Shown here one piece after another: positions 9,372 through 15,028 of a stretch of DNA of 64,000 bases. This DNA is from Anaerolineaceae bacterium (GTDB lineage: Bacteria; Chloroflexota; Anaerolineae; Anaerolineales; UBA11657): contig BGOS01000027.1 of the NCBI GenBank assembly GCA_003569365.1, positions 1 through 64,000 of the forward strand. The letters run 5' to 3'. Made by a program: the position numbers and the translations under genes. Numbering within the stretch: the stretch's first letter is position 1; each line of letters starts with the position of its first letter. The notes below the pieces were generated by a model. The model was not told the origin of the DNA. It saw only the letters and a program-made list of their open reading frames with translations, and did no database searches.

Positions 9372-9923
9372 CTAGCTGCGCAGGATTGCCCGGGCCACTG
9401 CCTTGATGGACTGGCGCGTGTCGCGGGCACGTTGTTGCAATGCGCGGAAAGCCGCTTCTTCAGACATTCCCAGCTGCATCAGGCGCCCCTTGGCGCGGTC
9501 CAGTAGTTTGCGGGTTTCAAGCGCTTCATCCAGTTCGGCGCAGCGCACCTTCAGCGCCTGCAGTTCGGCAAAGCGCGCAACGGCAGTGGCCAGCGCCCCG
9601 GCCAAGGCCGCAGCCGGCACGGGCCGCGGCAGCACCGCAAACACGGGCAGATCCGCCACGCTCGCCAGCACATTTTCTTCATTGATGTCCGTCACCAGCA
9701 GAATTGGGAGCGCGGCGTTTTGGGAAAACGCGCGCAGTTCCGTGCTGTGCTGCGGGCGTGTCCACTCAGCTGCCAGCACGGCAGCATCCGCAGCCGGCTG
9801 CTGCGCCAGGCCGGCCGGCGGGCGCAGCTGCGCGGCCGGCAGCGGCTCATGGCCAATTGTGCGCAGCAGGGAGCAAAGCGCAGCGCGCGCATCCGGGTCA
9901 GGGTCAACCACGAGCACGCGCAT
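9372..9923 (-). CDS. ANTAR-domain response regulator with degenerate receiver
   Basis: A 183-residue protein with an N-terminal receiver-like domain and a C-terminal ANTAR domain at about 130-183 (ETRKLLDRAKGRLMQ, then EEAAFRALQQRARD). ANTAR proteins bind paired hairpins in leader RNA and prevent terminator formation, often for nitrogen genes. The receiver keeps the acidic pocket (D7, D9), but the phospho-acceptor position is Glu53 (EWTRP) and the usual KP Lys is Arg (LPRP). It may therefore be locked in an active-like state or regulated without phosphorylation. It is divergent from glnE, 24 bases between ATGs, and the glnA leader has a terminator-like hairpin. Confidence 0.85.
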   Translation of the reverse strand: MRVLVVDPDPDARAALCSLLRTIGHEPLPAAQLRPPAGLAQQPAADAAVLAAEWTRPQHSTELRAFSQNAALPILLVTDINEENVLASVADLPVFAVLPRPVPAAALAGALATAVARFAELQALKVRCAELDEALETRKLLDRAKGRLMQLGMSEEAAFRALQQRARDTRQSIKAVARAILRS

Positions 9924-9947: not shown

Positions 9948-12900
9948 ATGCTAAACAGTGCTGTGGAGACGCAGCTGCAGGCGGTTGGCTTCGCGGATTA
10001 TGAAACTGCCATGCGCAGTGCGCAGCGCTTGCAGGCGCTGCCCGCCGCCGCCGGCTTGCTGCCGGCGCTGCTGGCGGTGCTGGCGCGCGCAGCCAATCCG
10101 GACCGCGCGCTGCTCAACTTTGAGCGCTTCATAGAGTGCTGCGCAGCGGCCAGCCCGCCGCTGGCTGCGCCCGGCAGTGATGTGCGCACGCTGGAAAAAC
10201 TGGTGCGCCTGTTTGCCGGCAGCCAATACCTCACAGAAATTATGCTGCGCGACCCTGCGCAAGCTGCGCTGCTGGCTGACCATGCCGGCCTGGCGCGCGT
10301 GCCGGCTGCGGCTGCGCTGCAGGCTGGCGCATTGCAGGCTTGCCGGGCTGCTGCGCCGGAAGACGCGCTGCGGCGCTGGCAGCACGGCGAGCTGCTGCGC
10401 ATCGGCGCAGCTGATCTGCTGGGCCTGCTGGATCTGGCAACCGTAACTGCGCAGCTGACGGCGGTGGCAGACAGCGTGATTGCGCAGTGCCTGCGCCTGG
10501 CCGGCGACGGCAGCGCGCTGCCCGCCGGCTTTGCAGTAGTGGCACTGGGCAAGCTGGGTGGCAGCGAGCTGAACTACTCGTCAGACATCGACCTGTTGTT
10601 TGTGGCGCATGCGGATGCGCAGCACCAGCACGCGGTGGGGCAGGCGCTGATCGGGCTGCTCACGCGCACAACCAGCGCCGGCTTCCTGTATCGCGTGGAC
10701 ATGCGCTTGCGGCCCCTCGGGCGTGCCGGGGCGCTGGTTTGTTCGCTGGCTGCGCACGCGGCGTATTTGCAGCAGCACGCGCGCCAATGGGAACTGCAGG
10801 CGCTGCTCAAGGCGCGTTTGGCTGCGGGTGACGAATCCGTGTTTGCGCAATTTCAGCAGCAGGCTGCGGCTGCCATCTTTAATATTGAAGCGCCCAAACT
10901 GCGCAGTGCCATGCACGCCATGAAGCAGCGCACCGAAGCGCAGCTGCAGCGCCAGGGCCGCGCGTGGGGCGAGGTCAAGCTGGGCACGGGCTCCATCCGC
11001 GATGTGGAATTTGTGGTGCAATACCTGCAGCGCCTGCATGGTGCTGCGCTGGATGTGCGCAGCCCGAACACGCTGCTGGCCTTGCAGCAGCTGGCGCAGC
11101 ACGGCCTGCTGCCGCCAGCTGCGCAGCACACGCTGGCCGATGGCTATCGCTTCTTGCGCACCATCGAGCATCATCTGCAGCTGCTGGATTACCGCCAGAC
11201 GCACACACTGCCCGCGGACGAAGCGGCACTCACAGCGCTGGCGCAGCGCCTGGGCTTCCGCGGCGGGCAGGCGCGCACCGACTTTGTGGAGCGCTATGAG
11301 CAGCACAGCGCTGCCATTCGCGCCGTGTACTGGGGCTACTTTGATGCGCCGGCGGAGGCAGTGCCGCAAGTGCAGCGCCATGTGCTGCGCATGGCCCCGT
11401 CTTACGCGCAGATTTTTAGCGCTGCAGAAGTAGCGCGCCATGCGGCGCTGGCCGCAACGCTGGATGGCGAAACGCTGGCAGCGGTGGAGGGCGAGGCGCT
11501 GCCCGGCGGGCAGTGGCGCGTCACAATTGTTGCCAACGATTACCTGGGCGAGCTCACAATCATCTGCGGGCTGCTGTTTGTGCACGGGTGGAACATTGTG
11601 GACGGGCATGTGTTCACCTACGAGCCGGCTGCTGCCGGCGATGCGGCAGGGGACCGGCAGCGCAAGATTGTGGATGTGTTCACGGTGCAGCCGGTGGCGC
11701 GGGCTGCTGCGCTGCCAGCTGCGGTGCAATTGGCGGAGTACGCGCGGGAGCTGCAAACTCTGCTGGCACTGCTGCAAGCCGGCGAACGCCGCACGGCGCG
11801 CGGGCAGCTGGCGCGGCGCGTGGCAGCAGCGGTGGAGCCGGCAGCCGCCACCGCACCGCTGCCGCCGCTGGAGATTGAGATCGACAACACGGCTGACCCG
11901 CGCTACACGGTGCTGCGCCTTGGCGCACCGGACACCGTGGGCTTCCTGTATGAGTTCACCAATGCGCTGGCAATGCAGCGCGTGCACATTGCGCGCGTGG
12001 AGGTGCAGACCAGCGGGGCGCGCGTGCAAGACACGCTGTACGTTACCGATGCAGCAGGCGCGCGCATTACCGCGCCGGCGCGCCAGCAGGAGCTGCGCGC
12101 TGCGTGCACGCTCGTGAAGCACTTTACGCATTTGCTGCCGCACTCGCCGGACCCGGCGGCCGCGCTGCTGCACTTTCACCAGTTTCTGGGGCAGCTGTTT
12201 GCGCGTCCAAACTGGCCGCGTGAGCTGGCCACGCTGGACCGCCCGCCGGTGCTGGATGCATTGGTGCGGCTGTTGGGCGTGAGCGACTTTTTGTGGGAGG
12301 ACTTTTTGCGCCTGCAATACGACAACCTGCTGCCGCTGGTGGCCGACGAGCAGGCGCTGGCAGCAGCCCGCCCGCGCGCCGAACTGGCCGCCGAGCTGGC
12401 TGCCGGCCTGCAAGCGCTGCCGGACAGCGCCGCGCAGCGCACCGCCCTGAATGCCTTCAAGGACCGCGAGATGTTCCGCATCGACATGCGCTACATTCAA
12501 GGGCGCATCACAGAGTTTGGGCAGTTCTCCGGCGAGCTGGGCGATGTGGCCGAGGAGGTAGTGGCGGCCGCGCTCGGCATTTGTGCGGCGGCGCTGGCGG
12601 CGGTGCATGGCGCGCCGCTGCTGGCGGATGGCAGCGCATGTGCGCTGGCGGTGTGTGCGCTGGGCAAGTGCGGCGGCCGCGAGCTTGGCTTTGCATCGGA
12701 CATCGAGTTGATGTTTGTTTACACCGGGCCGGGGCAGACGCGCGGGCCGCGCGTGCTTAGCAATGCGGACTACCACGAGCGCCTGGTGGAAAATTTTGTG
12801 GCGTTGATTGCCGCGCGCCGCAATGGCGTGTTTGAAGTGGACCTGCAGCTGCGCCCGTATGGCGCAGCCGGGCGCATGGCAGTGTCGCTTGAATCATTCG

Positions 12901-13490
12901 CCACATATTTTGCGCCGGCTGGCGGGGCCTGGGATTACGAGCGCCAGGCGCTTGTGAAGCTGCGCCCGGTGGCAGGGGATGCCGCACTGGGCGCACAGCT
13001 GCTCGCACTGCGCGATGAATTTGTTTACACCGGCGTGCGCTTTGACGCGGGTGCAATGCGCGCGATGCGCGAGCGCCAGCTGCGCCATCTGGTTACGGCC
13101 GGCACGCTCAATGCCAAATTCAGCAGCGGCATGCTGGTGGATGTTGAATATCTGGTGCAGGCCCTGCAAATAACGCATGGCGCACACGCGCCGGCGCTGC
13201 GCGTGTCGAATACGCGCGCGGCACTGGCTGCGCTGCGCGCGGCCGGCGTGCTGGATGCACCGGCGCACAGCGCGCTGCTCGATGCCTACAACTTTGCGCG
13301 CCGGCTGATCAATGCGCTGCGCATGGTGCGCGGCAATGCGCGCGACCTTACTGTGCCGCCCGCAGACAGCGATGAGTTTGCGTTTTTGGCGCGGCGCCTG
13401 GGCTTTGGCAGCCGCCAGCCCGAGCTGGCTGCGCAGCTGGCGCAGCACGGGCAGTCCGTGCAGCAAATAAGTGCGCGCTTGATGCCCTGA
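9948..13490 (+). CDS. glnE: GlnE glutamine synthetase adenylyltransferase/deadenylylase with inserted GlnD-type ACT pair
   Basis: A 1180-residue GlnE, about 235 residues longer than E. coli GlnE (946). The N-terminal nucleotidyltransferase half has GGSELNYSSDIDLLF near 204, and the C-terminal half has GGRELGFASDIELMF near 908. Between them, at about 520-720, lie two ACT-like modules (WRVTIVANDYLGELTI, then YTVLRLGAPDTVGFLYEF and DTLYVTD) that resemble the glutamine-sensing end of GlnD, including the intervening linker. GlnE adds AMP to, or removes it from, glutamine synthetase; the Tyr target is present in the adjacent GlnA. The second NT motif reads D-x-E instead of D-x-D. ATG 9948 fits the leaderless promoter. 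Confidence 0.9.
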   Translation: MLNSAVETQLQAVGFADYETAMRSAQRLQALPAAAGLLPALLAVLARAANPDRALLNFERFIECCAAASPPLAAPGSDVRTLEKLVRLFAGSQYLTEIMLRDPAQAALLADHAGLARVPAAAALQAGALQACRAAAPEDALRRWQHGELLRIGAADLLGLLDLATVTAQLTAVADSVIAQCLRLAGDGSALPAGFAVVALGKLGGSELNYSSDIDLLFVAHADAQHQHAVGQALIGLLTRTTSAGFLYRVDMRLRPLGRAGALVCSLAAHAAYLQQHARQWELQALLKARLAAGDESVFAQFQQQAAAAIFNIEAPKLRSAMHAMKQRTEAQLQRQGRAWGEVKLGTGSIRDVEFVVQYLQRLHGAALDVRSPNTLLALQQLAQHGLLPPAAQHTLADGYRFLRTIEHHLQLLDYRQTHTLPADEAALTALAQRLGFRGGQARTDFVERYEQHSAAIRAVYWGYFDAPAEAVPQVQRHVLRMAPSYAQIFSAAEVARHAALAATLDGETLAAVEGEALPGGQWRVTIVANDYLGELTIICGLLFVHGWNIVDGHVFTYEPAAAGDAAGDRQRKIVDVFTVQPVARAAALPAAVQLAEYARELQTLLALLQAGERRTARGQLARRVAAAVEPAAATAPLPPLEIEIDNTADPRYTVLRLGAPDTVGFLYEFTNALAMQRVHIARVEVQTSGARVQDTLYVTDAAGARITAPARQQELRAACTLVKHFTHLLPHSPDPAAALLHFHQFLGQLFARPNWPRELATLDRPPVLDALVRLLGVSDFLWEDFLRLQYDNLLPLVADEQALAAARPRAELAAELAAGLQALPDSAAQRTALNAFKDREMFRIDMRYIQGRITEFGQFSGELGDVAEEVVAAALGICAAALAAVHGAPLLADGSACALAVCALGKCGGRELGFASDIELMFVYTGPGQTRGPRVLSNADYHERLVENFVALIAARRNGVFEVDLQLRPYGAAGRMAVSLESFATYFAPAGGAWDYERQALVKLRPVAGDAALGAQLLALRDEFVYTGVRFDAGAMRAMRERQLRHLVTAGTLNAKFSSGMLVDVEYLVQALQITHGAHAPALRVSNTRAALAALRAAGVLDAPAHSALLDAYNFARRLINALRMVRGNARDLTVPPADSDEFAFLARRLGFGSRQPELAAQLAQHGQSVQQISARLMP

Positions 13491-13571: not shown

Positions 13572-15011
13572 CTACACGTCAAAGTACATGGTGAACTCAT
13601 GCGGATGCGGGCGCAGGCGCACCGCATCCACTTCGTTCACGCGTTTGTACGCAATGTACGATTCAATCAGGTCGGGCGTAAACACATCGCCCTTCAGCAG
13701 GAACTCATGGTCGGCTTCCAGGGCGTCAAGCACCTTGTCCAAAGAGTCCGGCACTTGCGGAATGTTCGCCAGTTCCTCAGGCGGCAGCTCGTACAGGTCT
13801 TTGTCTGCCGGCGCACCCGGGTCAATGCGGTTTTGGATGCCGTCGAGGCCCGCCATTAGCAGCGCAGCCAGCGTCAGGTATGGGTTGGCGGCGGGGTCGG
13901 GTGCGCGGAACTCAATGCGCTTGGACTTTTCCGATTTGGAGTAAACCGGGATGCGGCAGATGGCGGAGCGGTTGCGCTGCGAGTACGCCAGATTCACCGG
14001 CGCCTCATAGCCCGGCACCAGGCGCCGGAAAGAGTTGGTGGTGGGCGCGGCGATCGCCAGCAGTGCCGGCGCGTGCTTCAGCAGGCCGCCAATATAAAAG
14101 CGCGCATTGTCGGACAGGCCGGCATAGCCGGCTTCACTGAAGAACACATTCTTCTTGCCCTTCCAGATGCTTTGGTGCACGTGCATGCCGCTGCCGTTGT
14201 CCGCATATAGCGGCTTGGGCATGAAGGTGGCAGTCAGCCCGTTTTGGCGCGCCACCTGCTTGACGATGTACTTGTACACCATCATGCGGTCGGCCATGGT
14301 CAGCAGCGGTGCGTAGCGCAGATCAATTTCGCACTGGCCGGCAGTGGCCACCTCATGGTGATGCACCTCCACCTCGACGCCGGCGTTTTGCAGCTCAATC
14401 ATCATCTTGCTGCGCACGTCCTGCAGTGTGTCGGCTGGCGGGCAGGGATAGTAGCCGCGCTTGGCCGGGATTTGCCCGCCGAAGTTGGGCCGCGCGGGGC
14501 GCTGGTCGCGGCCGCTGTTCCACCAGCCTTCGGGGCTGTCCAGCTTGTAGCCGGAGCTGTAGGGCGTGCTCTCGTATTGCACATCGCTGAACAAAAAGAA
14601 CTCTGCCTCCGGCCCCCAGTAACTTTCGTCGCCGATGCCGGTCTGCTTCAAGTAAGCGGCGGCTTTTTTGGCCACGTAGCGCGGGTCGCGCGAGTATGGC
14701 TGGCGTGTGATCGGGTCGTGCACATCGCAGATGATGGCCATAGTTGGCACGCTCAGCACTGGATCCACAAATACGGTTGCCGGATCGGCAATCAGCAGCA
14801 TGTCTGACTCGTGAATTTCCTGAAAGCCGCGGATCGATGAGCCATCAAAGCCGATGCCCTCCTCAAAGAACTCCTCGTCGAAGTCTTCCGCCATCATGCT
14901 GAAGTGCTGCCAGGTGCCAAACAGGTCGGTGAAGCGAATGTCGATGATCTTTATTTCTTTGCGCTTGGCCAGCGCAATCGCTTCCTTCGCGGTCTTGATT
15001 GTCTCGGGCAT
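13572..15011 (-). CDS. glnA: Type I glutamine synthetase
   Basis: A 479-residue GlnA catalysing ATP-dependent glutamine formation from glutamate and ammonia. Visible are the N-terminal beta-grasp domain (DLFGTWQHFSM), the EAEFFLF metal-site segment, NGSGMHVHQSIW near 270, and DKDLYELPPEE near 405. The last carries the Tyr that GlnE adenylylates in enteric bacteria. ATG 15011 was chosen: GGAGA lies upstream at a usual distance and the protein starts like its family. A longer frame upstream would run through the leader hairpins. It converges on glnE. Confidence 0.97.
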   Translation of the reverse strand: MPETIKTAKEAIALAKRKEIKIIDIRFTDLFGTWQHFSMMAEDFDEEFFEEGIGFDGSSIRGFQEIHESDMLLIADPATVFVDPVLSVPTMAIICDVHDPITRQPYSRDPRYVAKKAAAYLKQTGIGDESYWGPEAEFFLFSDVQYESTPYSSGYKLDSPEGWWNSGRDQRPARPNFGGQIPAKRGYYPCPPADTLQDVRSKMMIELQNAGVEVEVHHHEVATAGQCEIDLRYAPLLTMADRMMVYKYIVKQVARQNGLTATFMPKPLYADNGSGMHVHQSIWKGKKNVFFSEAGYAGLSDNARFYIGGLLKHAPALLAIAAPTTNSFRRLVPGYEAPVNLAYSQRNRSAICRIPVYSKSEKSKRIEFRAPDPAANPYLTLAALLMAGLDGIQNRIDPGAPADKDLYELPPEELANIPQVPDSLDKVLDALEADHEFLLKGDVFTPDLIESYIAYKRVNEVDAVRLRPHPHEFTMYFDV

Positions 15012-15028
15012 GGGGTGTGTCTCCTTTC

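Follow-up and report, generated by a model that had tools for sequence, protein, structure and literature searches.

Can one protein both sense glutamine and adjust the adenylylation of glutamine synthetase (GS)? The question is raised by a glnE gene on a contig of an Anaerolineaceae bacterium, in the 64,000-nucleotide stretch of DNA analysed here (the window). In the textbook relay, GlnD senses glutamine through its ACT pair (PMC3173338, PMC4285133) and modifies PII, and PII or PII-UMP balances the activities of GlnE (PMC12409994, PMC4285133, PMC3173338), whose C-terminal half adenylylates and whose N-terminal half deadenylylates (PMC12409994). The GlnE of the window has 1180 aa and that of E. 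coli 946, a difference of 234 that agrees with the approximately 235 extra residues noted in an earlier, sequence-only reading of the locus. That reading placed a GlnD-type tandem ACT sensor at about residues 520–720, between the two GlnE halves, and proposed that it could bypass the GlnD/PII relay. The gene, its parts and its neighbours are as follows.

9948 to 13490, plus strand: ACT-containing GlnE (glutamine synthetase adenylyltransferase/deadenylylase), 1180 aa, assigned with Pfam, NCBIfam and the full-length model.
9948 to 11360, plus strand: GlnE N-terminal half, aa ~1–471, homologue of the E. coli deadenylylating half, with D213, D215 and D251 invariant.
11367 to 11477, plus strand: helical pre-ACT segment, aa ~474–510, which precedes ACT1 in GlnD as well.
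11478 to 11777, plus strand: ACT1, aa ~511–610, with the β1–α1 loop DxxGxL at 531–536.
11871 to 12143, plus strand: ACT2, aa ~642–732, with the β1–α1 loop DTxGFLY at 662–668; its last helix enters the C-terminal half.
12144 to 13487, plus strand: GlnE C-terminal half, aa ~733–1180, homologue of the adenylylating half, with D918, E920 and D965 invariant.
13572 to 15020, minus strand: glnA, encoding a type I glutamine synthetase and convergent with glnE, with a tyrosine in DLYELPPEE.
9372 to 9923, minus strand: ANTAR/AmiR-like antiterminator-type regulator, divergent neighbour of glnE.

The glnE frame begins with ATG and runs for 1180 codons. An in-frame TTG upstream of it, at 9720, was judged an unlikely start, because the gene would then overlap the ANTAR gene on the opposite strand.

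The protein is already recognised as GlnE by curated models. It scored 529.7 bits against NF008292, the bifunctional GlnE equivalog (cut-off 487), and Pfam found in it two GlnE and two GlnD_UR_UTase (helical) stretches. It does not qualify as a GlnD by TIGR01693 (108 bits, below the cut-off of 519), and Pfam found no HD domain (uridylyl removal) in it. Its middle, residues 474–720, matched the GlnD models TIGR01693 (E=3.1e-31) and PRK05092 (E=4.7e-33, on positions 691–919 of 940), and the region of the GlnD model that was matched is the part holding both ACT domains. Pfam's own ACT match, at 654–705, was sub-threshold (E=2.9e-4). E. coli GlnE (MG1655), used as a control, matched the GlnD models in the nucleotidyltransferase region only and gave no ACT match. 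An ACT profile of the window-GlnE family matched E. coli GlnD, not E. coli GlnE, and a profile of the insert matched six GlnD-type proteins at their C-terminal end, E. coli GlnD among them (E=9.5e-9), the order pre-ACT segment, ACT1, ACT2 being collinear. The matches to the GlnD models, taken with the E. coli GlnE control, indicate that the insert between the catalytic halves is real and GlnD-like beyond chance; at the level of profile comparison, the homology of aa 474–722 to the tandem-ACT end of GlnD is confirmed. The proposed GlnD-type module is thus present between the halves, but its borders (~474–722) are wider than those first proposed, because the pre-ACT helical segment shared with GlnD belongs to it.

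The earlier reading had also called for an AlphaFold check of the insert for ACT folds, and the prediction agreed with it. The model, built from 81 aligned homologues, had a mean pLDDT of 91.5 and consisted of helices, two ACT folds and then a long helix. Foldseek matched it to solved, ACT-containing proteins of the PDB: 180-kDa glutamate dehydrogenase in its ACT region (E=2.2e-5), GL3 in its ACT-like domain (TM 0.78 on the target), and the ACT domains of GcvR-type proteins and threonine dehydratase. When the PDB was searched by sequence with a profile of the insert, nothing significant and no GlnD ACT structure came up. In the model of full-length GlnE (pLDDT 85.5, pTM 0.60) both halves and both ACT domains were kept, and the last helix of ACT2 (710–732) is predicted to run straight into the C-terminal half; at this pTM the placement of the halves and the ACT pair relative to each other is of limited certainty, and less sure than the domains themselves. 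Profile homology, predicted fold and conservation in the family together give good support to the view that this GlnE contains a tandem ACT sensor of the GlnD type.

A scan of the genome collection returned 302 relatives. The best 80 of the 302 came nearly all from Anaerolineae or Ardenticatenia (Chloroflexota), Anaerolinea thermolimosa IMO-1 and Leptolinea sp. HRD-7 being among the carriers, and every complete gene in this set of 80 had the order nucleotidyltransferase–ACT–ACT–nucleotidyltransferase. GlnE was present in 38 genomes of a 150-genome sample of the class, and the ACT match was found in all 36 that were testable, the other two being contig-end fragments. In a 301-genome sample of the phylum it was present in nine, eight with the ACT pair and the ninth (G039) with a weak partial match only. 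Restriction to Chloroflexota was ruled out by the class of G350 (Thermoanaerobaculia-labelled, Acidobacteriota-type), where 13 of 61 genomes matched the insert, three strongly, their insert resembling that of Chloroflexota, and ten as more divergent forms. The proteins examined from this class have both GlnE halves with intact motifs; the N-half motif had only seemed to be missing from Acidobacteriota-type proteins, an artefact of the search expression. When a quick tree was drawn, entries carrying the labels of other phyla sat within the Chloroflexota set, so for these transfer or mislabelled bins are possible.

Several variants were seen. In a divergent Acidobacteriota-type subgroup of the class of G350 (L145-L149 and L151), the glycine of the ACT2 loop is replaced (DSFMFLFEF) and that of ACT1 is retained. 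Short forms with the GlnD-type ACT pair and the C-terminal (adenylylating) half only occur at L018:8180-10777, L019:9498-12131 and L020:7155-9169, in three genomes that belong to the phylum of the window genome but to other classes; one of them stops at a contig end, and no second, N-terminal GlnE half was found in these three genomes. In G520 (L134/L143/L152), a 2122-aa open frame around the ACT-containing gene was considered as a giant fusion and rejected: the DNA is GC-rich, and the frame is the shadow of a peptidase-like gene upstream.

Both GlnE-type nucleotidyltransferase halves of the window protein have their catalytic carboxylates intact, and D213, D215 and D251 in the N-terminal half, as well as D918, E920 and D965 in the C-terminal half, were invariant among 60 full-length relatives. 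The second active site does read D-x-E (D918, E920), as had been noticed before, where E. coli GlnE has D-L-D; the suggestion that this may make the two activities unequal, however, finds no support, given that E920 is invariant in all 60. D-x-E was read in 91 of the 91 matches to the C-half motif, among them those from the short forms and the Acidobacteriota-type proteins, and this invariance rules out decay of the second site and marks D-x-E as a family signature. The nucleotidyltransferase motif is known to accept either D or E at this place.

The neighbouring GlnA appears to be a suitable target. Its DLYELPPEE aligns with the E. coli adenylylation site NLYDLPPEE, tyrosine included, and glnA is the only GS gene found in the window genome. 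Among 48 eligible loci (a complete gene flanked by 2 kb or more on either side), glnA lay no more than 500 bp from the ACT-containing glnE in 23, in four different arrangements; such repeated adjacency in differing arrangements supports a functional link. The target tyrosine was found by regular expression in 34 of 38 GlnAs, a test that did not settle the other four.

We propose that the window protein is a bifunctional GS adenylyltransferase/deadenylylase with its own GlnD-type tandem ACT glutamine sensor between the halves. At high glutamine, glutamine would bind the ACT pair, and the resulting change of shape, passed through the ACT2 helix into the C-terminal half, would favour adenylylation of the neighbouring GlnA at the conserved tyrosine and so inactivate it; at low glutamine, the N-terminal half would take the AMP off GlnA. 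One protein would then stand in place of the GlnD–PII–GlnE relay. Such direct control of GS adenylylation by glutamine is the most likely mechanism, and we hold it with some confidence, since it is supported by the architecture, the homology to GlnD, the conservation, the intact active sites, the adjacent GlnA and the class-wide absence of GlnD described below. Glutamine as the ligand and the direction of control are what homology and context suggest.

The ACT pair could instead bind another small molecule, either another amino acid or 2-oxoglutarate/glutamate as a measure of nitrogen status, in which case the enzyme would be allosteric without sensing glutamine. The ligands of ACT domains are diverse, the structures matched by Foldseek include serine-, isoleucine- and other ACT proteins, and one subgroup has an altered ACT2 loop. 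Yet by far the closest homologues of the insert are the ACT pairs of GlnD, whose known effector is glutamine (PMC4285133), and the substrate of the enzyme is glutamine synthetase itself; we therefore consider another ligand unlikely.

At 95.5% completeness, the window genome yielded neither a separate GlnD nor PII, whereas PII was found in 13 of 14 control genomes; the PII/GlnD control partner of the window GlnE thus seems, from these searches, to be absent. The survey of glnD that the sequence-only reading had suggested gave no GlnD above the cut-off in any of the 150 class genomes, and the sub-cut-off matches listed were either the ACT-containing GlnE itself or covered only a portion of the model, in most cases its HD part. 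GlnD is thus lacking class-wide. A canonical PII, taken as a match with E below 1e-19, was present in 24 of the 150 (7 of the 38 carriers, 17 of the 112 non-carriers), which excludes a carrier-specific loss; the rarity of PII is therefore also class-wide and unlinked to the ACT-containing gene. Among 50 carriers reached through their loci, canonical PII was found in eight and a full or near-full GlnD in two. As the genomes are mostly metagenome-assembled, single absences weigh little.

Two carriers, one Spirochaetales-labelled and one Thermoanaerobaculia-labelled, have both GlnD and PII. These two, together with the seven of 38 that have PII, show that the relay is not always replaced and that the ACT module is not strictly its substitute everywhere. 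The claim of a bypass thus fits the window genome, which lacks both proteins, and the 150 class genomes without GlnD, but not the two carriers with GlnD and PII, and the rarity of PII is not tied to the carriers. The Spirochaetales-labelled genome (G348) has a locus, L128, where ~12 kb hold all of glnD, PII, glnA and the ACT-containing glnE, so that built-in sensor and classical relay coexist there.

Such a locus, like the canonical PII of the 7 of 38 and 8 of 50 carriers and the weak PII-like matches in further genomes, would be expected if the ACT module were an added input alongside PII or a PII-like protein and the enzyme still depended on PII. We regard this as improbable, because a canonical PII could be recognised neither in the window genome nor in most carriers, and carriers do not have PII more often than non-carriers. 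On the reading proposed here, the ACT-containing GlnE would act independently of PII. GlnD-like proteins were also seen at L022, L023 and L028, in large genomes of the phylum to which the window genome belongs; that of L022 matched TIGR01693 with E=2e-90, and in those of L022 and L023 Pfam finds ACT domains and no nucleotidyltransferase or HD domain. The PII-like matches in G134 and G150 were weak only.

Control by a bound ligand is consistent with the pattern of conservation within the insert. The β1–α1 loop is the classical effector-binding site of ACT domains. Among the 60 full-length relatives these loops were 85–86% conserved, against 60% for the whole of ACT1 and 72% for the whole of ACT2, and D662, G665, F666, L667, Y668, N672 and A673 in the region of the ACT2 loop were invariant. 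That the ACT pair is structural only, serving dimerisation or spacing with ligand control lost, is very improbable: ACT domains often dimerise and the insert outside its loops is less conserved than the GlnE catalytic halves, but the effector loops are among its most conserved parts.

Compared with E. coli GlnE (NF008292), the window protein has the same two homologous nucleotidyltransferase halves in identical order, the same catalytic residues except one (D-x-E for D-x-D at the second site) and the same target tyrosine in GlnA, whereas the ~110-residue centre of the E. coli enzyme is replaced by ~250 residues with two GlnD-type ACT domains. With GlnD (TIGR01693, NF003467) it shares the pre-ACT segment, ACT1 and ACT2 in this order and a nucleotidyltransferase in the same protein; unlike GlnD, it has no HD (uridylyl-removing) domain, its ACT pair is internal rather than C-terminal and its catalytic halves belong to the GlnE family. 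Plant ACR11 and ACR12 also tie a GlnD-like tandem ACT to glutamine synthetase biology, but as free-standing chloroplast ACT proteins without catalytic domains (PMC3173338). No description of an ACT-containing GlnE was found in open-licence full-text literature, which leaves out most subscription papers, so novelty is not proven; the internal sensor and its association with missing GlnD seem undescribed.

More broadly, we lean towards the view that the two-cycle GlnD–PII–GlnE–GS cascade has collapsed, among Anaerolineae-class Chloroflexota and certain lineages of other phyla, into one glutamine-sensing bifunctional enzyme that sets GS activity with no GlnD and usually no PII, and that simplified relatives keep the sensor and the adenylylating half only. 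Both protein AMPylation and the two-cycle signalling cascade have GS adenylylation as their founding example. A version reduced to one protein by transplanting the sensor would reveal how a cascade of this sort can be shortened and by what means bacteria lacking GlnD or PII still control GS, and would offer a compact system for studying glutamine sensing and AMP transfer together. The presence of the gene in the cultured, named Anaerolinea thermolimosa IMO-1 makes the proposal directly testable.

On the other side of glnE in the window, the ANTAR/AmiR-like gene starts 24 bp from the glnE ATG, and a neighbour of the same kind stands beside glnE at three further loci (L044, L045 and L054).
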